This document shows positions 49,177-59,761 of a stretch of DNA of 64,000 nucleotides, in pieces. The position numbers and the translations under genes were made by a program. Below the pieces are notes generated by a model, which was not told the origin of the DNA, did not search any database, and was given only the letters and a program-made list of their open reading frames with translations. The first letter of the stretch is position 1. The number at the start of each line of letters is the position of its first letter. The stretch comes from Ereboglobus sp. (GTDB lineage Bacteria; Verrucomicrobiota; Verrucomicrobiia; Opitutales; Opitutaceae): NCBI GenBank assembly GCA_029974595.1, contig JARKRC010000027.1, positions 62,001 through 126,000 of the forward strand, written 5' to 3'.

Positions 49177-50700
49177 CTACGGGCCGAACTGTTTTTTGTA
49201 GAGCGCGTTGAGCCGGTCGACGTCGGCGCGCGGCACGCGGGGTTCGGCGGTGGCGAGGGCGAGCCATTGCGCGGCTTCGCCGGCTTTGTTTTGGACGATG
49301 GCGAGGCGTGTCATCAGGGTGAGCGCGACGGGCTGGCCCGGATCGGTTTTGAGCACTTCGCGGAGTTCGGCGGCGCCGTCGTCGATGCGGTTTTGCCGGA
49401 AATGGATGAGCGCGATTTCGATGCCCTCGTTTTGGCTTTCCTCCGGGCGGAGGCGGCGGGTTTCCTGGAATTGGCGGAGCGCGGCGTCGAGGTTGCCGGC
49501 GGCCTTGAGGGCGCGGGCGTATTCGCGGCGGACGGCGGCGGATTGCGGGCAATGCGCGAGTGCGAGCACGGCGTCGTCAATCGCGGTGGCGGTGTCGCCC
49601 GTGGCGTTGGAGAGCGCGATGAGCGATGTCCAGGCTGCGGCATCGGACGGAGCGAGACGGGTGGCGTGTTCGAGGCGGGCGCGCGCCTGCGCGGCATCGC
49701 CGAGGGCGGCGTGAAGTTCGCCAAGCTGGCGGTGCGTGGCCGCGTCGTCGGGCGCGAAATCGAGCGCGTGGTTGAGCAGGGCGATGGCGCGCAGGGTGTC
49801 GCCCGCCGACTGCGCGCGGACGGCGGCGGCGCGAACTTGGGCGGCATCGTAACAATCGTCGGCGAGCAAACCGAGCCACTCGTCGTCGGGAGGATGGAAG
49901 GCGCGGGTGTTTTTGGCGCGGTCGCGATTTTTTTGCGCGTCGCCGGGCTGGTTGAGTTTTTCGTGGACGGTGGCGAGGAGGTTCCAGGGGTCGGTGAAAT
50001 CGGGGTGAAGCTCGGTCGCGAGGATGAGCCGCAAACGGGCGGAGATCCATGATTGCGAGGCGATGTCGATGCGGGCGAGGCCGAGTATCGCCGAGAGACT
50101 GCCGGGGTCGTCAACCATGACGGCGCGGTAGAGCGCGGCGGCCTCGGCAGGGCGGCCGGTTTCCAGGAGCAGGTCGGCGAGCCGGAGGCGGAGCGTTGTG
50201 CGGTCAGGGGCGAGTGCGCAGGCGGACTGGAGGAGCGGGATCGCTTCGCCGGGGCGTCCGAGGTCGGCAAGGATTGCGGCCTGCAGGAAGGGCCAGCGTG
50301 GGTTTTTCGGATCGAGGCGGATGAGCGCGGGGTAGATTTGCGAGGCTTGGGCAGGGAAGCCGTTGGCGTGGTAGAGGCGGGCGAGTTCGGCGAGCGCAGT
50401 GATGGATTCGTGGCTGTATTCGCCGGCGGCGCGGTGCTCGGCATCGGCGATGCGCGCGCCGAGGATTTGCGGGAATGACGCGAGCGCGGCGGCGGGACGC
50501 TCGGGAATGGCGCCGGCGAGGGTTTTTTGGCGCGTGCCGAGGTTTTGGAGAAAAAGCGCGGCGACGATGCCGACAGCGAGAAAGGCGAACACGTATTTGA
50601 ACCAGCGCGGACGGTTGTCGGGCGGGAGTTCAAAGTCGGGCGGCGGCCCGGCGTGTGCGGTGTATGGCTGCTGGTCCTTGCGCATTGGAAGGTTTTGCAT
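49177..50700 (-). CDS. Membrane-anchored TPR protein, last gene of the lipid-pigment-like operon
   Basis: A 507-residue protein. A proline-rich cytoplasmic N-terminus is followed by one transmembrane helix at about residues 34-52 (YVFAFLAVGIVAALFLQNL). The remaining 440 residues are tetratricopeptide repeats, with recognisable units such as SITALAELARLYHANGFPAQASQIYPALIRLDPKN and PGEAIPLLQSACALAPDRTTLRLRLADLLLETGRPAEAAALYRAVM. The start could also be at 50685. It begins 24 bases after the radical SAM gene. TPR scaffolds of this type hold protein complexes at the membrane; the partner is unknown. Confidence 0.8.
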   Translation of the reverse strand: MQNLPMRKDQQPYTAHAGPPPDFELPPDNRPRWFKYVFAFLAVGIVAALFLQNLGTRQKTLAGAIPERPAAALASFPQILGARIADAEHRAAGEYSHESITALAELARLYHANGFPAQASQIYPALIRLDPKNPRWPFLQAAILADLGRPGEAIPLLQSACALAPDRTTLRLRLADLLLETGRPAEAAALYRAVMVDDPGSLSAILGLARIDIASQSWISARLRLILATELHPDFTDPWNLLATVHEKLNQPGDAQKNRDRAKNTRAFHPPDDEWLGLLADDCYDAAQVRAAAVRAQSAGDTLRAIALLNHALDFAPDDAATHRQLGELHAALGDAAQARARLEHATRLAPSDAAAWTSLIALSNATGDTATAIDDAVLALAHCPQSAAVRREYARALKAAGNLDAALRQFQETRRLRPEESQNEGIEIALIHFRQNRIDDGAAELREVLKTDPGQPVALTLMTRLAIVQNKAGEAAQWLALATAEPRVPRADVDRLNALYKKQFGP

Positions 50701-50724
50701 GGGCGCGTGCTGATGCCGCGCCCG

Positions 50725-52152
50725 TCATCGGTTTTCGCCGGACTGCTGGTAGCGTTGGAGAATTTCGATGTATTCCCACAACGGGCCGCGCAGGCCGCGG
50801 CTGCGGAGTTTTTTTATCGTGGCGACAAAGGCCGAGGGCGGGTCGCCGACAACCCAGTTGGGCGCCGTGTTGCGGAAAACCGCCAGACGCTCGTAGAGAC
50901 TTTCCACGGTCAGGGGCGGCTCGATGTGGAAACGCGGCGTGGCCAGAAAAGCCTCGCGTGTCTCGCCGGTGGCGGCCGGGCCGGATTTTTCCCAGAGCGG
51001 CGTGCCGGGGAAGATGCGCATGCCGATCGTGGCGAAATAATAGGCGCGCGGTATTTCGGCGGCGCGGGCGAGCGTTTGCTCCACGGTGCCGGGCGTTTCG
51101 CCGGGGCCGCCGAAGATGAGGAAGTGCCCGTATAGGATGCCGAGCTCGTCGGCGTAGGCGCTGACGCGGCGGATGTCCTCGTAGGTGAAAACTTTGCCGT
51201 AGGCTTTGAGGACGGGATCGGAAAAACTGTCGGCGCCAAACTCGACGTGGCGCATGCCGGCGCGCTTCATGAGCGCGAGGTGGTCGCGGGTGAGGCCGCG
51301 CGGGCTGAGGAAACACTCCCATTCCACGCCGAGGTTTGCGGAGCAGAGGGCTTCGCAGACCTCGACGAGGTGTCTTTCGTTGGTGTTGAAAACGGAATCG
51401 ACGATGAAGGTGTAGCGCACGCCGAGGTCGCGGAGGCGGGCCATTTCCTCGACGACTTGCGCGCCGGTGCGGTAGCGGCTGCGGCGGCCCTCGATGTGCG
51501 GATATGAGCAGTAGCAACATTTGAGCGGGCAGCCGCGCTGGGTTTGCACGCCGATGATCGAGCCGGCGCCGACATACGAGGCGAGGATGTCGGGCGTGTG
51601 CGCGGGCTCGGCCGTGAAGCCTGCCTGCCTGGCCGCGTATTCGTTGCAACAGGCGGCGCGGGAGGCGTCCTTCCATGCGACGCCGGGGATGGAGGAAGGC
51701 GGGCGGTTTTCGCGGAGCGCGGCGAGGAGCGCGACCAGCGGCGCCTCGCCTTCGCCGCGCACGCCGTAATCGGCGCCGGTGAGTTCGAGGAGCTCGGTCG
51801 GGAAAATGGAAAAGGCGCTGCCGCCGACGATGATCGGGGCGCGGGTGACTTTGCGGAGTGTGGCGCAGCAGTCGGCGAGGCTGCGGACGAAGGAGAGCGG
51901 GTTGTGGCTTTGGGCGTTGTCGATGTTGCGCAGCGAGAGGGCGATGAAGTCCGGCTGGAATTGCGCGACGGTTTCCTCAAGGGGGCCGCGGCTGGCGCGC
52001 GCATCCCAAAGATACGTTTCGTAGCCGGCTGCGCGCAGCGCGCCGTCGATGTAAGCGAGCCCGAGCGGATAAACAGGGTAGGGCTGGTCGTAGGTGTTGA
52101 GGTTGACGAGCAAGACGCACGGCGCGGCGGACTGGAGGCTTTGCGTATCCAT
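50725..52152 (-). CDS. B12-binding-domain radical SAM protein
   Basis: A 475-residue enzyme. The N-terminal part (VLLVNLNTYDQPYPVYPLGLAYIDGALRAAGYETYLWDA and IIVGGSAFSIFPTELLELTG) has the cobalamin-binding Rossmann fold. The radical SAM motif is CPLKCCYC (C-x3-C-x2-C), binding the 4Fe-4S cluster. FGADSFSDPVLKAYGK and HFLIFGGPGETPGT belong to the TIM-barrel. Such class B enzymes methylate unreactive carbons or rearrange rings on lipid and antibiotic precursors. It starts three bases after the exporter stop codon, so it clearly belongs to the operon, where it may modify the acyl or aryl product. Confidence 0.9.
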   Translation of the reverse strand: MDTQSLQSAAPCVLLVNLNTYDQPYPVYPLGLAYIDGALRAAGYETYLWDARASRGPLEETVAQFQPDFIALSLRNIDNAQSHNPLSFVRSLADCCATLRKVTRAPIIVGGSAFSIFPTELLELTGADYGVRGEGEAPLVALLAALRENRPPSSIPGVAWKDASRAACCNEYAARQAGFTAEPAHTPDILASYVGAGSIIGVQTQRGCPLKCCYCSYPHIEGRRSRYRTGAQVVEEMARLRDLGVRYTFIVDSVFNTNERHLVEVCEALCSANLGVEWECFLSPRGLTRDHLALMKRAGMRHVEFGADSFSDPVLKAYGKVFTYEDIRRVSAYADELGILYGHFLIFGGPGETPGTVEQTLARAAEIPRAYYFATIGMRIFPGTPLWEKSGPAATGETREAFLATPRFHIEPPLTVESLYERLAVFRNTAPNWVVGDPPSAFVATIKKLRSRGLRGPLWEYIEILQRYQQSGENR

Positions 52153-52155
52153 GAT

Positions 52156-54462
52156 TCAATTACAAGTGGCGGCGGATGGCTTTGCGGCCCGCTTCAGTTC
52201 AACCACGACGAGGGCCGAGAGCACGATCAGCGCGACGGTGACGCCGAGGGCGGAGACGACCGGGATGCTGCTGCACGCAAGCACGCCGAAGGATGCCGCG
52301 GTGCTGAGCGCGGAGAGGCGGATGGACGGCGGCGGCTGCTCCTTGCGCGCGTCGTTTTCGGCGGTGAAGATGGCGTAGTTGTGACTGAGGCAGACGCCGA
52401 GGAACGCGCCGAGGAGATGAAAGAGGTTGAGCGTCACGCCGCAGAGGCCGAGCACGCCGAAGGCAAACAGGCAGGAGCCGACGGGCGTCGTGAAAATGAG
52501 GGTGCCGCGTTTCACGCCATAGATGAGCCACATGCTCAGGCCGACAAGCCCGAGCCCGATGGCGCTGAGGCGGAGCGCGGAGACGCGGTAGCGGCCGAAA
52601 AGTTTGTCGAGCGACTCGATCTGGTTGAGGCTGACGGTGGACAATCCTGCGGGAGGTTCGACGGCGGGTGCGGGATGATCGGCGGCGGTGATGAGGAAAC
52701 TGGCGCCGGGAGCGTCGGACATGAGAAGCGCGACCTGGCCGCGGAGCGAGGAGGCGAGGGCGGAGACGGCCTGGTCGTAGCTGCGGGCGGGGGTAAAATT
52801 TTTCCAGGCGTTGAAAAACGGTTCAAATTCAGAGGCATTGAAGCCGTGGCGGTCGAGCGCGACGCGGAGGGCGTCGGGGAAGGACCGCAGTTCTTCAAGG
52901 CGCGCGGGGAGCGCGTCGTAATCGGCTTGCAACGGGAGCGCGTAGCCGGGCGAGGCGGTGGCGGCGCCGGGAAATTGAGCCTCGTGCCATGCGTTGAATT
53001 GTTCGAGCGCGGCGCGGGTGGTGGCGATGTTTTCGCCGCGCGTGAGATAAATGGTGCGCGATGCGGTGTCGCCGAAAAACGCGCGGAGCTCGGCGGCGTC
53101 CCTTGTGAGTTGGGGCAGGCGCGGCTGGAGATCCAGGGTGCTGTCGCGCCAGTGCAGCCGCCACGGGCCGGCGAGGGCGACGAGCACGCCGAGGGCGAGG
53201 ATTGCGATGGCGGCGCGGCGGGCGGTTTTGCCGGGCCGGGCCTGAATGCCGGCGAAGGCGCGTGCCTGCATGAACGGGTCTTTGATTTGCGCGAACCAGA
53301 GGACGGCGGTGACAAGCGCGCAGAGCAGGCCGGTGCTCACGAACACGCCGAGCTGGCGGATGAGCGGGAGGTCGGAAAAAAGCAGGAGCGAGAAGCCGAG
53401 CACGGTTGTCAGCGCGCTGCCGAGGAGCGGCTTCATCAGCCGGCGGACTTTTGCGGAATACGGTTCGCCGGGTATTTTCCGCGGCTGGAGGTAGAGATAA
53501 AAACCGTAGTCGATCGAGACGCCGGCGAGCATGAGGCCGAGCACGAAAACGAGGACGTGGACACGCTCGAAGCAGAGCGTGACGGCGACGCACGCGCCGA
53601 GAAGCGCGCCGAGGATGACAGGGGCGAGGTTGAGCGTGCCGGCGATTCGCGGGAGGCAGATGGCGGCGACGCCGAGGACGGCGAGCAGGGTGAGCAGCGT
53701 GCCGAAAATCAATTCGTGCATGATGCTCCGTTTGCTTTCGGCGGCGAAACGGCTGATGGCGGTCCACCGAAGCGTGGCGTCGGGGGCGATTTTTTTTGCG
53801 GCTTCGAGGGCGGCATCCACGGCGTCGAAAACGGGTTTCTGCCCCGCCTCGGCGAGAGGCTTTTCGCGGGTGAGCGTCCAGATGAGCGCGGTGTCGCCGG
53901 GGACGACAGCGGAGCCGGCGTCGAGGGACTGGACCTTTTCCACGAGCGAGGGGAGAAGGAGAAGCGGGTCGTGGGGAAGCAGGTCGGCAAAGGCAAGGGC
54001 TTCGGGTTTGCCCATGAAACGTTCGAGGCTGGCGGCGGTTTTTTCGGCGAGCGCGGCCGGGTCGGACGATTCGTTTTTTGCGAGCCATCCGGGGAGGAGG
54101 AGTTCGAAGCGCTGCTCGAAGATTTGCCGGGCAAGGGCGTTGCGCGAAGCGGTGTCGGCGGCGGCTTCGACCTCGGAAAACGCGCCGCTGGCGGAAAGCG
54201 AGCCGATGAAGGCGGCGGTCGCGCGGTCGCGGTTGTCGTCACCGCCGGGGACACGGAGGGCGAAGAGCGCGACGCGCGCCTGCTTTTCGTCGGCGAGCGC
54301 GCGGATGACGGCGAGCTCGGGGGCGCGCTCTGTGGCGGGGATAAGGTCGAGGACGCTGGTGGAGATTTTTTTGGAGTAATCGAGCGAGGCAAGCCACGCC
54401 GCGCCGGCAAGCGCGCTGACGAGCAGGAAGAGGCGGGCAGGCGTTTTGCTCAGGAAATTCAT
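52156..54462 (-). CDS. RND/MMPL-type exporter
   Basis: A 768-residue inner-membrane protein with the MMPL layout: one N-terminal helix, a large periplasmic domain (about residues 30-245), five helices (SIMHELIFGTLLTLLAVLGVAAI, and the LVFVLGLMLAGVSIDYGFYLYLQ signature), a second periplasmic domain, and five more helices with HLLGAFLGVCLSHNYAIF. The GVSIDYGFYL segment matches the conserved Asp-Tyr region of MMPL proteins. Related exporters move aryl-polyene and other lipid products across the inner membrane. It overlaps the LolA-like gene by four bases. Confidence 0.88.
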   Translation of the reverse strand: MNFLSKTPARLFLLVSALAGAAWLASLDYSKKISTSVLDLIPATERAPELAVIRALADEKQARVALFALRVPGGDDNRDRATAAFIGSLSASGAFSEVEAAADTASRNALARQIFEQRFELLLPGWLAKNESSDPAALAEKTAASLERFMGKPEALAFADLLPHDPLLLLPSLVEKVQSLDAGSAVVPGDTALIWTLTREKPLAEAGQKPVFDAVDAALEAAKKIAPDATLRWTAISRFAAESKRSIMHELIFGTLLTLLAVLGVAAICLPRIAGTLNLAPVILGALLGACVAVTLCFERVHVLVFVLGLMLAGVSIDYGFYLYLQPRKIPGEPYSAKVRRLMKPLLGSALTTVLGFSLLLFSDLPLIRQLGVFVSTGLLCALVTAVLWFAQIKDPFMQARAFAGIQARPGKTARRAAIAILALGVLVALAGPWRLHWRDSTLDLQPRLPQLTRDAAELRAFFGDTASRTIYLTRGENIATTRAALEQFNAWHEAQFPGAATASPGYALPLQADYDALPARLEELRSFPDALRVALDRHGFNASEFEPFFNAWKNFTPARSYDQAVSALASSLRGQVALLMSDAPGASFLITAADHPAPAVEPPAGLSTVSLNQIESLDKLFGRYRVSALRLSAIGLGLVGLSMWLIYGVKRGTLIFTTPVGSCLFAFGVLGLCGVTLNLFHLLGAFLGVCLSHNYAIFTAENDARKEQPPPSIRLSALSTAASFGVLACSSIPVVSALGVTVALIVLSALVVVELKRAAKPSAATCN

Positions 54463-55115
54463 TTGTCCGTGCGGAAGTAGTTTTGCAGCTCGGCTTCGGT
54501 GAAGGTCATGCCGGATTTGGTTTCGCCGACGAGGACTTCGACGCGGAGTTTGGGAGAGGTGTTGAAGCTGAGCGTTTTTATGTCGGTGCCCGCGCCAGTG
54601 ACGACGATCGCGCCGAGGGCTTCGGCGAGTTTTTTATTGAGCGGAACAAAATCGAACCGCCAGTCGCCGGCATCGCGCGCGGCATGGACCGTGAACTGAT
54701 TAAAAAGCTCGCCGATGTCGAAGCGCATGACAGGGAGAAGGGCGGTGACGAGGCCGGCGTCGCGCGTCCCGGCCTTGATCTGGCGCGCGCGGCCCTTGGC
54801 GTCGCGGAGGAGCAGGCCGCGCGTGTCGATGACGGTGAGCGTTTCTTCGGGCTCGGTGTAGCGGAGGCTCAGGCCGGTGTCGGGAATGAGGCGCATCTCG
54901 CCTTGGAGCACGACGGGGTTTTTGCGCGCGGCGAAGTGGCGGTTTTCGGTGAAAGTGGAATACGTCGCGCCCTTTGCCGCGAGCGCGGAGAAGAGCCAGC
55001 GCCATTCGTCGGCTCCGGCGGAGTCGCGCTCGATGACGGGGCCGCGCTCCGCGGGCGGGGCGGCGTGAAGCGGCGCGAGCAGCGCGAGGAATAGCGGAAG
55101 GAGGATTTTTTTCAT
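54459..55115 (-). CDS. LolA-like outer-membrane lipoprotein carrier protein
   Basis: A 218-residue periplasmic protein. The start at 55115 gives the signal peptide MKKILLPLFLALLAPLHAA. The mature part follows the LolA pattern: TFTENRHFAARKNPVVLQGEMRLIPDTGLSLRYTEPE, LTVIDTRGLLLRDAKG, and VTGAGTDIKTLSFNTSP. LolA-like proteins recur in aryl-polyene clusters and probably carry the lipid product through the periplasm to the outer membrane. Four-base overlaps on both sides (glycosyltransferase and exporter) show tight coupling. Confidence 0.85.
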   Translation of the reverse strand: MKKILLPLFLALLAPLHAAPPAERGPVIERDSAGADEWRWLFSALAAKGATYSTFTENRHFAARKNPVVLQGEMRLIPDTGLSLRYTEPEETLTVIDTRGLLLRDAKGRARQIKAGTRDAGLVTALLPVMRFDIGELFNQFTVHAARDAGDWRFDFVPLNKKLAEALGAIVVTGAGTDIKTLSFNTSPKLRVEVLVGETKSGMTFTEAELQNYFRTDK

Positions 55116-55888
55116 GCGGATGAGGAGGCGCGTTTTTTTTGGGCGCGGCGGGCGGCGGGCCATTCGCGGAGAAGCAGCGCGATGAGGAGGCGTGTGTGCA
55201 GCCAGACCATGCGGATGTTGTCGCGCAGGTAATGAAAATGCGAGACGCCGCCTTCATCGCGCGAGAGGTATTTGCAGGCGGCGGGGATGTTGACCACGGG
55301 AACGCCGGCCCAGAAGAGGCGCACGGCGAGTTCAGGATCGAAATCGTAATGGCGCGCGAACCATGCGCGGTTCATGGCGGCAACAAGGGGCGCGAGCGGA
55401 TAAACGCGAAAGCCGAAAAGCGGGTCGTCGATGCCGCCGCCGAGGCATTCGAGGCGGACGATGCCGATGCTGAGTTTGCGGCCCTTCATGCGGACGGACG
55501 GAGCCTCGGGGCCGAAGACGGGCTTGCCGAGCACGAGGGCGGCGGGCGCGGCTTGCGATGCCGCCATGAAATCCTGGATGCGGCCGGCGGGATGCTGGCC
55601 GTCGGCGTCCATGACAAGGGCGTGCGTGTAGCCTTCGGCGAGGGCGAGTTGCGAGGCGTGAAGCACCGCGGCGCCTTTGCCGGAATTTTTTTTGCGGACA
55701 AGGACGCGAAGGCCAGCTTGCGCGGAGACGAGGCTTTGAATGGCGGCGGCGCTGTCGTCCGTGCTGCCATCGATCACGACCCACACGGGCGCCCAATGCG
55801 CGAGGGCGTCGCGCACGGTCTGGCAGAGGAGCTGCGCGCCGGTGTTGTAGCTTGGGATGAAAACGATGTGGGTGCGCGAAGGAGTCAT
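55112..55888 (-). CDS. Family 2 glycosyltransferase
   Basis: A 258-residue cytoplasmic or membrane-associated GT-A enzyme. It begins HIVFIPSYNTGAQLLCQTV, then VVIDGSTDDS with the first acidic residue pair, and ALVMDADGQHP with the metal-binding DxD. The C-terminal region GGIDDPLFGFRVYPL and RDEGGVSHFHYLRDNIRMV resembles dolichol-phosphate-mannose-synthase-like and aryl-polyene-type GT2 proteins. In many aryl-polyene clusters GT2 is fused to an acyltransferase; here they are separate genes overlapping by four bases. Confidence 0.88.
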   Translation of the reverse strand: MTPSRTHIVFIPSYNTGAQLLCQTVRDALAHWAPVWVVIDGSTDDSAAAIQSLVSAQAGLRVLVRKKNSGKGAAVLHASQLALAEGYTHALVMDADGQHPAGRIQDFMAASQAAPAALVLGKPVFGPEAPSVRMKGRKLSIGIVRLECLGGGIDDPLFGFRVYPLAPLVAAMNRAWFARHYDFDPELAVRLFWAGVPVVNIPAACKYLSRDEGGVSHFHYLRDNIRMVWLHTRLLIALLLREWPAARRAQKKRASSSA

Positions 55889-56628
55889 TTGGAAAGGAGC
55901 GCGGCGAGGTGGCCCTCGATCTCGGAGGAAAGGGCGGCGGCGGTTTTATGCGGATCGTGCGGCCAGACGCGGTCGAGCGTGAAGTCCATCGTGGCGGGCA
56001 GGACGTCCGGAATTTTCCACCACGGGCGCCCGCGCGTGACGAAGCCGGCCGATGCGCGCACGGTGATGAGTCGCACGGGCGCGGCGGCGCGGAGGGCGAT
56101 GAGCGCGAAGCCGGGTTTGAAAGGGTTCAGCGTCGTGCCGGGCTGCGTGCGGGTGCCCTCCGGAAAAATGAGCAGCGACGAGCCGGCGCGGATTTTGTCG
56201 GACACGGCGCGGATCATGTTGACGTCGTTCGAGCCGGTGACGAAGCCGGCGGTGATGGCGGCGGCGCCGAGCGCGGGGTTGCTCATGATCGCGGGTTTCA
56301 CGACGCAGATGGAGTCGGGAAGGCGCCCGAGCAGGATCGGCGCGTCGACGAGCGCAGGGTGATTGGAAATATAAACGGTTCCGGACGCGAGGGGCTCGTC
56401 GAAATTTTTCCAGGTGATGCGCAGGATGCCGCTTGCGCGGAACCACCCGATCCAGGCGCGAAAAAGGCCGCGCTGGACGGCGCGCATTTTTTTGTGGAGA
56501 CCCTCGCGTTCGCGCCAGGGCAGGAGCGGCAGGCTGCACACGCTGAGCAGAAAGCCGACGCCCATGAACAGGCCCCACGAGGCGTAGTAGGCGAGGGAGT
56601 AATAGAGTTTTTTGAGGAAAGGGATCAT
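55885..56628 (-). CDS. PlsC-like 1-acyl-glycerol-3-phosphate-type acyltransferase
   Basis: A 247-residue membrane acyltransferase. The start at 56628 (MIPFLKKLYYSLAYYASWGLFMGVGFLL) gives an N-terminal membrane helix. The catalytic HX4D motif is NHPALVD, and the FPEGTRT motif is present, with FKPGFALIALRAAAPV after it. It overlaps the upstream acyltransferase gene by four bases and the GT2 gene by four. It presumably esterifies the cluster's product with an acyl chain from ACP or CoA. Confidence 0.88.
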   Translation of the reverse strand: MIPFLKKLYYSLAYYASWGLFMGVGFLLSVCSLPLLPWREREGLHKKMRAVQRGLFRAWIGWFRASGILRITWKNFDEPLASGTVYISNHPALVDAPILLGRLPDSICVVKPAIMSNPALGAAAITAGFVTGSNDVNMIRAVSDKIRAGSSLLIFPEGTRTQPGTTLNPFKPGFALIALRAAAPVRLITVRASAGFVTRGRPWWKIPDVLPATMDFTLDRVWPHDPHKTAAALSSEIEGHLAALLSK

Positions 56629-57572
56629 GCGGCGGCGCCCCGGGGCGGCGGAGCTGGAGAAATCGGTGAGGGAGAATTCCAAGGGATGAAATTGAACCAG
56701 AGGCAGGGGTTTTCGCGGAGGTTTTTTTCGAGCCTGCGCAGGAATTCCTGAAAATGTTGATGGCCGCGCGCGAGAGTGGCGGCGCGGGTTTCGCCGGGGA
56801 TGACTTCGAAGCGTGGCGAGGCGTGGAGAACGGCGACATCCGGGCTTTGCGGCGTGCCGAAGGCGAGGATGACGGGGCGTTTGAAAATCGCGGCGAGGAT
56901 GTAGATGGTGATGGGAAAGCGCCGCTTCGCGCCGAGAAAATCGAACTCGGCGGTGCGCGCGCTGTATTCGCAACGGTCGCATTGGAGGGCGATGGTGCCG
57001 CCCGCCGAGGCGGCGTCCTTGAGCGCGTAGATGAGTTCCTGCGGGTCGTTGACCCAGATGAACGCAATGCGCCCGCCGTATTTTTGCGCGAACTTTTCCG
57101 TGTCGTGCGAGTTGCCCACGCGTTCGCGCACGATGTAGGTTTTTTTGTGGATGCCGGCGTAGTTTTCGTCGCCAATCTGGAAGCCCTGCATGTCGGAATT
57201 GCCGACGTGGAAGGTGCCGAGCAGGATGTCGCCGCCGGTTTCCATCCAGTGCCTGAAGTCGTCCGCGCCGGGGCCGTAGATGGTTTTGTGCGGGCGGCCG
57301 TTGAGGACGCGCAGCTTGGTCATCAGCGATTCCTCGAAGGCGAAGAAATGCCGGAACACATCGCGCCACGAAGGGCGGCGGCCAAGCGCGAACGAAAGGT
57401 ATTCGCGCGAATGGCGGCGCTCCCCGGGCATGAAGACCATCGCGATGAGCGTGCCGATTGCGCGGAAGGGTTTATAGATGAACTCAGGCGTAATAATGTC
57501 GGCGGTACGCAGGAAGCGGTAGCCCCAGTTTGGGCCGGGATTGCGGCGGCATGTGTCGTCTGCTTGTGGCAT
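56625..57572 (-). CDS. Lipid A-type (LpxL/HtrB-like) acyltransferase
   Basis: About 315 residues from the preferred ATG at 57572; an alternative in-frame ATG at 57671 would overlap the preceding gene. The HX4D catalytic motif is HVGNSD, in the context GGDILLGTFHVGNSDMQGF, as in the lysophospholipid/lipid A acyltransferase group. TIALQCDRCEYSARTAEFDFLGAKRRFPITIYILA corresponds to the conserved second half (the GxxDRRxG-like region). It is one of two different acyltransferases in the operon. Confidence 0.82.
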   Translation of the reverse strand: MPQADDTCRRNPGPNWGYRFLRTADIITPEFIYKPFRAIGTLIAMVFMPGERRHSREYLSFALGRRPSWRDVFRHFFAFEESLMTKLRVLNGRPHKTIYGPGADDFRHWMETGGDILLGTFHVGNSDMQGFQIGDENYAGIHKKTYIVRERVGNSHDTEKFAQKYGGRIAFIWVNDPQELIYALKDAASAGGTIALQCDRCEYSARTAEFDFLGAKRRFPITIYILAAIFKRPVILAFGTPQSPDVAVLHASPRFEVIPGETRAATLARGHQHFQEFLRRLEKNLRENPCLWFNFIPWNSPSPISPAPPPRGAAA

Positions 57573-57606
57573 CGCGGTGCGGTGGCTGCGCGAGGGCGGC
57601 TTCGCG

Positions 57607-58275
57607 CTATCGCCATGAAAGCGTGGTGCGCCAGCCGGGCGCAATGACGCCGGAGAAATTTTTTCGTGCATGCAACAGGTCAAACCAGTCGCCCGGTGGA
57701 AGAGGCGTGGCTTCGGCGGCGTCGGGTTCCATGACGATGCTGCCGGCCGGCTGGAGGGCGGAGGCGGCGTTGTCCTTTGGCAGGAGGATCATGCCGTATG
57801 CATAAGCACGGGAACTGGCGCTGTCGATGCTGGTGAGCCAGGAGCCGCGTTCTTCGCCGCCGCACAGGAGCACGCACGGCGCGGGGGAGAGGAAGGCGGC
57901 AAGAATCGAGTGTCCGGCGAGGCAGCCGCCGTCCGCCATCGGGAAAAACTCCCCGACCGGCTGGGCGCGGCGGATCATGCCTTGCTGGACGGCGCCGGGA
58001 TGAATGGAGGATTGGAAGCCGGTGGGGCTGGGCGTGGGGAAACTTTCGAGATAATTTTCGAGGGTGCGGCCTTCGCCGAATTGCGTGGCGTAAATGATCG
58101 CGTCGTCGCTGCGCGGGCCGAGTTCGCCGATGATGGCGCTCATGAGCATTCCGAGCTGCGTCATGCGCCGGGCCGCGCCGGGAGGGAAGGCGGCCTTGAG
58201 GCGTTCGCGCGTGGCGGCGATGTCCTCGCTGCCGGCGTCGTCGGTGCGGATAGTCTGGATGAGGCGTTCAAGCAT
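57607..58275 (-). CDS. Ketosynthase-like protein with only the N-terminal thiolase half (Ketoacyl-synt_2 type)
   Basis: A 222-residue protein. The start at 58275 overlaps the ketosynthase gene by eight bases. The pattern AAFPPGAARRMTQLGMLMSAII, DDAIIYATQFGEGRTLENYLESFP, SPTGFQSSIHPGAVQQ and SPAPCVLLCGGEE matches the short beta-ketoacyl-synthase N-terminal family found in aryl-polyene clusters. The HX-type C-terminal histidines of a full ketosynthase are absent. A Cys lies in DGGCLAGHS, but not in a TACSS-like context. It probably acts as a non-catalytic partner, like a chain-length factor, of the adjacent ketosynthase. Confidence 0.72.
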   Translation of the reverse strand: MLERLIQTIRTDDAGSEDIAATRERLKAAFPPGAARRMTQLGMLMSAIIGELGPRSDDAIIYATQFGEGRTLENYLESFPTPSPTGFQSSIHPGAVQQGMIRRAQPVGEFFPMADGGCLAGHSILAAFLSPAPCVLLCGGEERGSWLTSIDSASSRAYAYGMILLPKDNAASALQPAGSIVMEPDAAEATPLPPGDWFDLLHARKNFSGVIAPGWRTTLSWR

Positions 58276-59437
58276 GGCGGAGGAGCAGCGCGGCGTGCGC
58301 GCCGCCAAAGGCGTTGCTGGCGCAGACAATGCCGTCGAAGGCGCGGTTGTCGAAGGGCGCGGTGGCGACTTCCGGCGTGAAAACGGGCGCGGAGGAGCCA
58401 ACCGTGCCGGGCGTGAGCGAGGGCGAGTCCGCTGCGGTCTTGCGCATGGAGGCAGCCGCGATGGCGAGTTCAACAAGCCCGCAACTGCCGAGCGTGTGGC
58501 CGAGCGCGCCTTTCCAACTGACGAGCGGCGCGCCGGGAAACGCGGCGGCGACCGCGGCGGATTCGAGGCGTCCGGCCTCGAGCGTGCCGGTGCCGTGGCC
58601 TTTCACCCAGACGCGCATGCCGGCGGCGGCGCGGACGATGGGCGCAAACGCGGCGACGAAACCGGAACCGTCGGGCTGGTTGGCGGTGAAGTGATGCATC
58701 TCGTTGTGGAGACTTTGCGCGGCGATCTGGAATTCCCCGCGGTCGCGGGCGAGGACGGCATAAGCCGCGCCGTCGCCGAGGCCGATAGCGCTGGCGGGAC
58801 GATCCATATAAGGCGCGGGAAATTCGGCGTTGAGGATTTTGAGCGAGTTGAAACCGCCCGCGACGAAGGGGCTGAGAAAGTCATAGGAAACGACCAGCAC
58901 TTCATCAACGAGCGCGCGCCCGTGATTGTCTTGCAGCGCGAGGAGGCGCCCGGCGTGCACGAGGCCAAGGTGCGCTGAGACGCAAGCGTGCGAAAAGACG
59001 GTGATGTTTGCGCCCCAGCCGCAGGCGTCGTGCAGCACCGCGACGGATTTATGTATGGGCCCGTAGCGTGCGTGCGCGGCAGCGGTTTCCGCCGTGGCCG
59101 GGAGCGCGTGTGCGCGGCGGTAGGCATGGAGGCTGCCAACGCCGAAATTGCTGCTCGTCACAATCACGGGATGCCGCGCGGTGCCCCAGCCTGGTCCGCA
59201 CACGGGCGCCAGGAACCGGCGCAGCGGCGCGAGCCATGCGGGCGGCGATTGTTCGTCGAGGGAACGTCCGGAAAGGAGCGCCATGGGCGCGTCGTCGCCG
59301 CCTTCATTGCCAAGCGCGGGAACAAGGCGCAGGGCGCGCTCGCCGCGGAGCATGGCGGCGAGCGTGTCGCGCGTGCCGCCAAAGGCCGTGAGGCATTCGC
59401 AAACTGCAAGGCGCGCGGGAGCTTGGCTTGCTTCCAT
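58268..59437 (-). CDS. Beta-ketoacyl-ACP synthase
   Basis: A 389-residue condensing enzyme with the complete triad: Cys in SHACVSAHLG, His in KGHGTGTLEAGRLE, and His in KGALGHTLGSCGLVELA. The C-terminal NAFGGAHAALLL matches the usual SNSFGFGG-type ending. It extends an acyl chain on ACP by two carbons. It sits 48 bases after the acyl carrier protein gene and overlaps the half-ketosynthase. The order fits aryl-polyene or flexirubin-like polyketide assembly. Confidence 0.9.
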   Translation of the reverse strand: MEASQAPARLAVCECLTAFGGTRDTLAAMLRGERALRLVPALGNEGGDDAPMALLSGRSLDEQSPPAWLAPLRRFLAPVCGPGWGTARHPVIVTSSNFGVGSLHAYRRAHALPATAETAAAHARYGPIHKSVAVLHDACGWGANITVFSHACVSAHLGLVHAGRLLALQDNHGRALVDEVLVVSYDFLSPFVAGGFNSLKILNAEFPAPYMDRPASAIGLGDGAAYAVLARDRGEFQIAAQSLHNEMHHFTANQPDGSGFVAAFAPIVRAAAGMRVWVKGHGTGTLEAGRLESAAVAAAFPGAPLVSWKGALGHTLGSCGLVELAIAAASMRKTAADSPSLTPGTVGSSAPVFTPEVATAPFDNRAFDGIVCASNAFGGAHAALLLRHA

Positions 59438-59485
59438 GATTTGTGTGATGCGATTGGCGGGGATTGAAGGCTCGGGCGCGGATGC

Positions 59486-59761
59486 TCAGGCGGACAATTT
59501 GGACGGATCGGCGCGATTTTGGATGAACTCGGCCAGGCTTGTGATGCTGGCGAGCGCGGCGCGGGATTCTTCGCTGCTGGAAATCTTGATGCCGAATTCC
59601 TTTTCGAGCTTCACGACGAGTTCGAGCGCATCGATGGAATCGAGGGCGAGGCCGGAGCCGATCAGCGGGGCATTTTCATCAAGTTCCTCCGGCGTCATGC
59701 CTTCGAGATTGAGGGTTGTGATGATGAGTTGTTTCAAACGTTGTATGAGAGGGTCGGCCAT
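59486..59761 (-). CDS. Acyl carrier protein
   Basis: A 91-residue protein, start at 59761 (MADPLIQRLKQLIITTLNLEGMTPEEL). The phosphopantetheine site is the serine of LALDSIDALELVV. The acidic helix pattern and KLEKEFGIKI are typical of dedicated ACPs. The C-terminus is somewhat longer than that of fatty-acid ACP. It is the first gene of the operon and has no partner dehydratase or reductase gene nearby. Confidence 0.92.
   Translation of the reverse strand: MADPLIQRLKQLIITTLNLEGMTPEELDENAPLIGSGLALDSIDALELVVKLEKEFGIKISSSEESRAALASITSLAEFIQNRADPSKLSA

Follow-up and report, generated by a model that had tools for sequence, protein, structure and literature searches.

An operon of aryl polyene type

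The 64,000-nucleotide stretch of DNA analysed here (the window; G000:C25:62001-126000) comes from an Ereboglobus genome, G000, of 4.07 Mb in 77 contigs that is 96% complete, a figure that bounds every absence reported for it below. Positions 49177 to 59761 are filled by ten consecutive open reading frames (ORFs), all on the minus strand, whose junctions range from overlaps of 4 to 8 bp up to gaps of 3, 24 and 48 bp. Eight of these genes resemble parts of a pathway for aryl polyenes (APEs), and a ninth encodes a cobalamin (B12)-binding radical S-adenosylmethionine (SAM) protein. A sequence-only reading had described ten tightly coupled minus-strand genes at this place, and the ORFs, short junctions and domain calls agree with that description.

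The run begins with an acyl carrier protein (ACP; 59486..59761, start ATG at 59761) that matches PF00550 (3e-9) and, below the cut-off, NF006617/PRK09184 (5e-18). The ketosynthase (KS; 58268..59437) matches the ketoacyl synthase C-terminal domain (1e-8) and, again below the cut-off, PRK09185 (2e-27); its residues Cys152, His281, Lys309 and His314 are invariant in all five aligned sequences (the window and four relatives). It is followed by a half-ketosynthase resembling a chain-length factor (CLF; 57607..58275) and an LpxL-like acyltransferase (56625..57572), neither of which had any Pfam or NCBIfam match when searched alone. The LpxL-like gene could also start at 57671, which would create a 65 bp overlap with its neighbor; a start at 57572 gives zero overlap, and comparison with another Opitutaceae genome (G010) suggests that this is the one used. 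Further downstream are a PlsC-like acyltransferase (55885..56628; PF01553, 4e-12), a family 2 glycosyltransferase (GT2; 55112..55888; PF00535, 5e-17), a LolA-like carrier (54459..55115; PF19574 (LolA_3), 6e-6, and weakly LolA2_flexi, 8e-5), an MMPL/RND exporter (52156..54462; PF03176, 2e-5), the B12-binding radical SAM protein (50725..52152; radical SAM 5e-23, B12-binding 1e-18) and, co-oriented 24 bp beyond it, a protein with tetratricopeptide repeats (TPR; 49177..50700) and a hydrophobic segment at its N-terminus. As had been noted from the letters, none of the ten genes encodes a reductase, a dehydratase or a ligase.

For every gene but the TPR gene we built a family profile of 6 to 28 sequences, drawn from 41 relative loci and the window, and ran it against 18 proteins encoded in the APE region of E. 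coli CFT073, with Ape letters assigned through the gene order in the available part of PMC8253772. Eight operon gene families matched their E. coli APE counterparts one-to-one. The ACP profile matched a PP-binding protein (1e-24), KS the ketosynthase at the ApeO position (2e-26), the half-KS the chain-length factor ApeC (5e-7), PlsC the lysophospholipid acyltransferase ApeD (1e-48), and LolA and MMPL their namesakes ApeL (1e-19) and ApeM (8e-76); the LpxL-like (2e-18) and GT2 (2e-71) profiles both fell on a single GT2-acyltransferase protein, ApeJ, as counterparts of its acyltransferase and glycosyltransferase parts. The letters A, C, D, E and I are in part assumed. All proposed gene identities were borne out, those of the half-KS and LpxL-like proteins through these profiles. 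Profiles from relatives for an AMP ligase and a second ketosynthase (KS2) matched the E. coli acyl-CoA synthetase and ApeR, and those for two dehydratase families (DH1 and DH2) and secX matched the ApeI-position gene, a dehydratase and the ApeA-position gene. The radical SAM profile had no match among the 18 proteins, in line with the earlier remark that this enzyme is not a standard member, and neither did the profiles for a chorismatase and a halogenase-like flavoenzyme found in relatives. The operon thus pairs a KS with a chain-length factor, has an ACP dedicated to them, and provides acyltransferases, GT2, LolA and MMPL to attach the product to a lipid and export it; we consider it very likely to belong to an aryl polyene pathway. 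It had been called the lipid-assembly and export half of an aryl-polyene-type cluster; the pathway type stands, and "half" does not, as ACP, KS and CLF are the elongation core.

Nine of the ten genes are a conserved Opitutales operon, and its recurrence in relatives, whose gene content rests on tblastn and profile matches, rules out a chance arrangement. Three Opitutaceae that lack the radical SAM gene (G018, G045 and G060) have the run ACP2-KS2-ACP-KS-CLF-LpxL-PlsC-GT2-LolA-MMPL-AMP ligase, with a chorismatase beyond the ligase on the opposite strand and halogenase-like flavoenzymes directly upstream. G088 has the core, ligase and chorismatase as in these three, with ACP2-KS2 ~9 kb off and the flavoenzyme ~58 kb off. 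Family f4 (G119 and G359) additionally carries an ApeA-like gene and a pair of hotdog dehydratase-like genes, and DH1 and DH2 are present in clusters from families of the order other than the window's. A contig break at the MMPL gene divides the G080 cluster between two contigs. Across 18 relatives' loci, the TPR gene was nowhere matched over its full length (L033 and L158 hold partial matches only, apart from the operon genes); it is probably a bystander outside the conserved pathway, and because of this lack of conservation we rejected its earlier placement in the operon as a scaffold.

The layout around the radical SAM gene is also shared. Seventeen named loci (L154-L170) encode proteins that share 50% identity or more with the radical SAM protein of the window; several named loci are contigs of the numbered genomes (L156 of G080, L184 of G119), so that the two sets overlap. 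MMPL lies upstream of the radical SAM gene in 11 of the 17. In the complete operons L158, L159, L164 and L167, MMPL and the radical SAM gene are followed directly by the AMP ligase, with the chorismatase beyond. In L155, L156, L157 and L166, the 10 kb beyond the radical SAM gene yielded no ligase, so the window's ligase-free layout is not peculiar to it; the downstream sequence examined in L154, L163 and L165 was shorter than 4 kb. L168-L170, from Verrucomicrobiota metagenome-assembled genomes (two labelled Akkermansiaceae), show a different order, ACP, radical SAM, PlsC, GT2, and a FabG2-like reductase lies upstream in L169 and L170 (L168 was left out of that search).

Pathway genes elsewhere in the genome

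The sequence-only reading had raised the possibility that the operon borrows enzymes from a second locus, and pathway genes do lie at other loci, namely the AMP ligase, a chorismatase and ACP2-KS2. G000 carries an orthologue of the AMP ligase at G000:C44:4016-5344 (592 bits to the profile from clustered relatives), outside the operon, with hydroxybenzoate as its predicted substrate. In G080, the sole other searched genome of the genus, the AMP ligase is found at C1:4578-5900 next to the same gene as in G000, which from its sequence we take to be gatB. A XanB2-like chorismatase, as expected of a xanthomonadin-type pathway, lies at G000:C21:71107-71847 beside what is presumably gyrA; it scores 178 bits against TIGR04444, whose cut-off of 325 was reached by no match in any of 132 genomes. 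ACP2-KS2, an ApeR-like ketosynthase with an ACP, is on C25, ~120 kb from the operon. There is precedent for such split loci in the two unlinked Azoarcus arc loci, both described as essential in the available part of PMC3949708.

We surveyed 132 Opitutales genomes, counting a chorismatase as strong at 124 bits or more and a radical SAM gene with a profile at 1e-60. KS occurs in 30 genomes, the chorismatase in 32 and both in 29 (Fisher p 1e-24; this and the other co-occurrence p values are inflated by the kinship of the genomes), with chorismatase but no KS in G163, G367 and G379. Because 29 of the 30 KS genomes have the chorismatase, the pathway looks xanthomonadin-type and started from hydroxybenzoate. 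MMPL was matched in all 22 KS-bearing genomes tested. The radical SAM gene was found in ten genomes, nine of them with KS (p 5e-6); the two genes share a contig in G000, G010, G119, G290 and G359 and lie on separate contigs in G158, G321 and G390. KS and radical SAM distances correlate across 16 genomes (Mantel r 0.84, p 0.0001), which fits joint inheritance, although species kinship alone would also give such a correlation. In all likelihood, the radical SAM protein is a genuine member of the pathway.

The halogenase-like flavoenzyme occurs in 14 of the 132 genomes, all of them among the 30 with KS (p 5e-11). A separate search of eight genomes found it in five and left it unmatched at 1e-8 in G000, G080 and G010. 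Among seven KS-bearing Opitutaceae, the flavoenzyme (G018, G045, G060, G088) and the radical SAM gene (G000, G080, G010) are mutually exclusive, as they might be if the radical SAM enzyme were an oxygen-independent stand-in for the flavoenzyme. Over all 30 KS genomes, however, the two are independent of each other and occur together in G119, G158, G290 and G359 (Fisher p 1.0). We thus rejected this replacement, which is very improbable.

The reductase and dehydratase of the pathway are most simply the general ones of the genome. One FabG above the family cut-off is encoded on C7 beside an ACP and is 43% identical to E. coli FabG2, and FabA/FabZ-type dehydratase genes are found on C61, C64 and C48. 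At G000:C48:8710-13399 (L090), genes for an ACP-dehydratase fusion, an ApeR-like ketosynthase, a short-chain reductase and a glycosyltransferase, presumably related to monogalactosyldiacylglycerol (MGDG) synthase, stand in a row. We rejected this locus as a dedicated second half of the pathway, as it is present in 71 of the 132 genomes, 47 of which lack the pathway KS, and absent from 6 of the 30 that have it. Its fusion protein is enriched with KS (24 of 30, p 8e-4) and its reductase is weakly like FabG2 (E 0.012); this lipid module may lend its reductase and dehydratase to the pigment pathway. A ketosynthase on C36 was rejected as part of a further APE locus: the KS proteins most closely related to it in G010 and G119 are encoded beside fabG, and we therefore take it to be the housekeeping FabF.

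The B12 radical SAM protein: family, fold and proposed chemistry

The radical SAM protein matches TIGR04072 (rSAM_ladder_B12) at 371.5 bits (cut-off 360) over positions 2-440 of 443 and has a CxxxCxxC motif at 208/212/215. To our knowledge, no reaction has been assigned to this family. Its name would suit a pathway that starts from a fatty acid and makes a non-aryl lipid, in which the radical SAM enzyme produces a ladderane-like or methylated fatty lipid, and Kuste2803, a radical SAM/B12 protein, was proposed for ladderane cyclisation in the available part of PMC2649909. The weak chorismatase match of G080, the scattering of ligase and chorismatase and the lack of a nearby ketoreductase would suit it too. 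Against such a lipid, G000 and G080 both keep the orthologous AMP ligase beside the same neighbor, G000 keeps the chorismatase, eight genes match the APE cluster, and none of the ten is phytoene-desaturase-like, such genes within type II fatty acid synthesis (FASII) clusters being a ladderane cluster feature in the same part of PMC2649909. We regard a non-aryl lipid as improbable.

We aligned 43 radical SAM sequences, namely those of 41 of 80 loci, the window protein and L033 (L195 was left out for a stop codon and L210 as a precaution); 18 of the 25 loci L001-L025 served as the ladderane-type sample. In the tree, the window protein groups with 21 others, comprising Opitutaceae-like loci, three f4 genomes and L168-L170 (support 0.97), and the 18 ladderane-type sequences form a separate clade (support 1.0). 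The Opitutales sequences L171, L185 and L192 fall outside the window protein's clade.

A structure predicted from the 43 sequences (pLDDT 91.6) revealed a TsrM-like fold. Among proteins of solved structure, TsrM scored highest by sequence (210 bits), the first four Foldseek rows for the model were all TsrM (E 6e-33 to 2e-31), and VIA-align superposed the two over 450 residues (Z 38.4, rmsd 2.1, 26% identity), ahead of MgmA (29.9), AprD4 (29.7), OxsB (28.8), CysS (25.7) and TokK (21.1). In the HMMER alignment, R75 pairs with TsrM Arg69 and is invariant in all 43 sequences; two other Opitutaceae B12 radical SAM proteins have Thr at this position. According to the available sections of PMC8992657, Arg69 leaves the lower face of the cobalamin empty, which promotes transfer of the methyl group to a carbon that is a weak nucleophile, and is tied to methyl transfer onto the aromatic C2, with other residues at this place in OxsB and TokK. 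The TsrM-like fold and the Arg69 equivalent thus point to a methylase acting on an sp2 carbon, and on the modelled structure we predict with fair confidence that the protein is a C-methylase.

The E. coli ketoreductase, thioesterase and ApeB-position methyltransferase were all unmatched near Opitutales clusters (single-sequence tblastn at 1e-3 over 36 loci of 15 genomes). For ApeB this holds near clusters with and without the radical SAM gene, within the cluster neighborhoods covered by these single-sequence queries. In E. coli, ApeB adds a methyl group to the aromatic head (PMC8253772, in the part available), and the level of methylation differs among xanthomonadins (PMC3949708, likewise); together with the lack of an ApeB-like gene near the clusters, this makes the aryl head the first candidate for the methylated site, a placement that we put forward tentatively.

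A second B12 radical SAM protein is encoded after fabG-acpP at L269:9989-11527 (G000:C7) and is 70% identical to L033:16805-18304 (G010:C13). The G010 copy adjoins the pigment operon, between ACP and ligase. The closest NCBIfam models of this second protein are ApyD and HpnJ, far below cut-off. Also near the G010 pigment operon (L056, on G010:C13), a stretch reading PRHLTGGKGGNRG-like in several ORFs is repeated between genes.

Proposed pathway and comparison with known systems

We propose a xanthomonadin-type aryl polyene core to which a TsrM-like C-methylase has been added, standing in for ApeB, and give this reading as a whole a probability of about 0.6. The chorismatase, encoded outside the operon, would make hydroxybenzoate, which the AMP ligase, likewise encoded elsewhere, would load onto the ACP. 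KS-CLF would add malonyl units, each round being completed by a general FabG-type reductase and FabZ-type dehydratase. The PlsC-, GT2- and LpxL-like enzymes would then join the polyene to a lipid, and MMPL and LolA would bring the lipid-linked polyene to the outer membrane. As an inherited tailoring member, the B12 radical SAM protein would methylate an sp2 carbon, by first choice in the aryl head. Core homology, co-occurrence, the scattered gene locations, the placement of the radical SAM gene among relatives, the TsrM-like fold and the cobalamin-side arginine were computed; the order of steps, the source of ketoreductase and dehydratase, methyl transfer and its site we infer.

Several observations weigh against this reading. 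The radical SAM gene is missing from 21 of the 30 KS-bearing genomes, which makes it optional; it is present without KS in G379, and in G390 it is on a different contig. Its place also varies: it precedes ACP2-KS2 in G119, G158 and G359, follows the flavoenzyme in G290 and precedes PlsC in G010. Around it, no other pathway gene was found in the sequence examined for L160 and L161, and L162 has one weak ligase-like match (24%). G080 is the sole KS genome without a strong chorismatase (48 bits); as it keeps ligase and operon, its starter acid may come from elsewhere. A search around the clusters of 15 Opitutales genomes, G000 included (36 loci), turned up no dedicated ketoreductase, and FabG2 had no match near Opitutales clusters. 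Since this absence is usual in the order, it does not argue for a different product. The sequence-only reading had seen the missing reductase as a sign of a different, perhaps methylated, lipid; that sign falls away, and methylation itself has gained structural support.

Further points of the same kind come from the residues of the enzyme. R75 and CxxxCxxC are kept in all 18 ladderane-type TIGR04072 members sampled, where an aryl head is not known, so the arginine is no proof of aryl chemistry and the shared substrate could be an unsaturated chain. The position of TsrM Glu273, which holds SAM away from the cluster iron (PMC8992657, in the sections available), is Val in 39, Ile in 2 and Ala in 2 of the 43 sequences, so that SAM could be free to bind the cluster, leaving room for radical chemistry. 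One alternative within the aryl polyene pathway is an enzyme that methylates or rearranges the ACP-bound polyene chain, and not the aryl head. In other Verrucomicrobiota, TIGR04072 genes are also found in ladderane-like clusters, near genes for KS, ACP and GT2, which suggests a common unsaturated acyl-ACP substrate, and the Val, Ile, Ala or Leu at the Glu273 position would leave a chain-acting enzyme room for radical chemistry. Yet the nearest solved relative is clearly TsrM, an aromatic-carbon methylase, and the known head-group tailoring in E. coli is ring methylation; we consider action on the chain unlikely.

A broader proposal can be made, speculative as it is and doubtful in its full extent. 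TIGR04072 proteins may be cobalamin methylases of TsrM type whose targets are sp2 carbons in unsaturated or aryl-capped chains bound to ACP; they may have replaced ApeB in Opitutales, giving B12-dependent C-methylated aryl polyenes, and perform related chemistry in ladderane-like clusters, whose members have hitherto been proposed as cyclases. An aryl polyene pathway, with its known scaffold, gives TIGR04072 a testable substrate, and the Arg69 match gives it a concrete mechanism. The dispersed starter genes are also a warning that mining by cluster overlooks parts of such pathways. Our literature search found no paper that combines aryl polyenes with radical SAM and cobalamin, none on TIGR04072 and no B12 radical SAM tailoring enzyme in aryl polyene clusters, although its widest part would have passed over papers holding only an aryl polyene term and "radical SAM"; among those it listed, PMC8549736, PMC10456417 and PMC9902471 each contain these two terms. 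As far as the available parts of the sources go, an arylpolyene cluster has been predicted in the Opitutales strain ASA1 (PMC12193912; see also PMC10927696) and ladderane-like clusters are known from Verrucomicrobiota (PMC9902471).

Compared with known systems, the operon shares ACP, KS, CLF, PlsC-like acyltransferase, LolA and MMPL with the E. coli CFT073 ape cluster; GT2 and acyltransferase are fused there and split here, and the AMP ligase, second KS and dehydratases of E. coli also occur in clusters of Opitutales relatives. The E. coli cluster has no B12 radical SAM protein, which is extra in the Opitutales operon, and its ApeB is a methyltransferase unrelated to that protein. E. coli uses UbiC (PMC8253772, in the part available), whereas the Opitutales pathway has the chorismatase instead. 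With xanthomonadin and arcuflavin clusters the pathway shares the XanB2-type chorismatase, AMP ligase, lolA, exporter, acyltransferases and glycosyltransferase; their halogenase-like gene is matched in Opitutales relatives but was not found in G000, and "radical SAM" is absent from the main text of the arcuflavin paper, as far as it was available (PMC3949708). TsrM, a tryptophan C2-methyltransferase, has the whole-chain fold, the Arg69 equivalent and CxxxCxxC in common with the window protein, but is 26% identical to it over the aligned part and has Glu273 where the window protein has Val. The TIGR04072 proteins of ladderane-like clusters belong to the same family, yet the window protein falls in another clade and its partners are of aryl polyene type.

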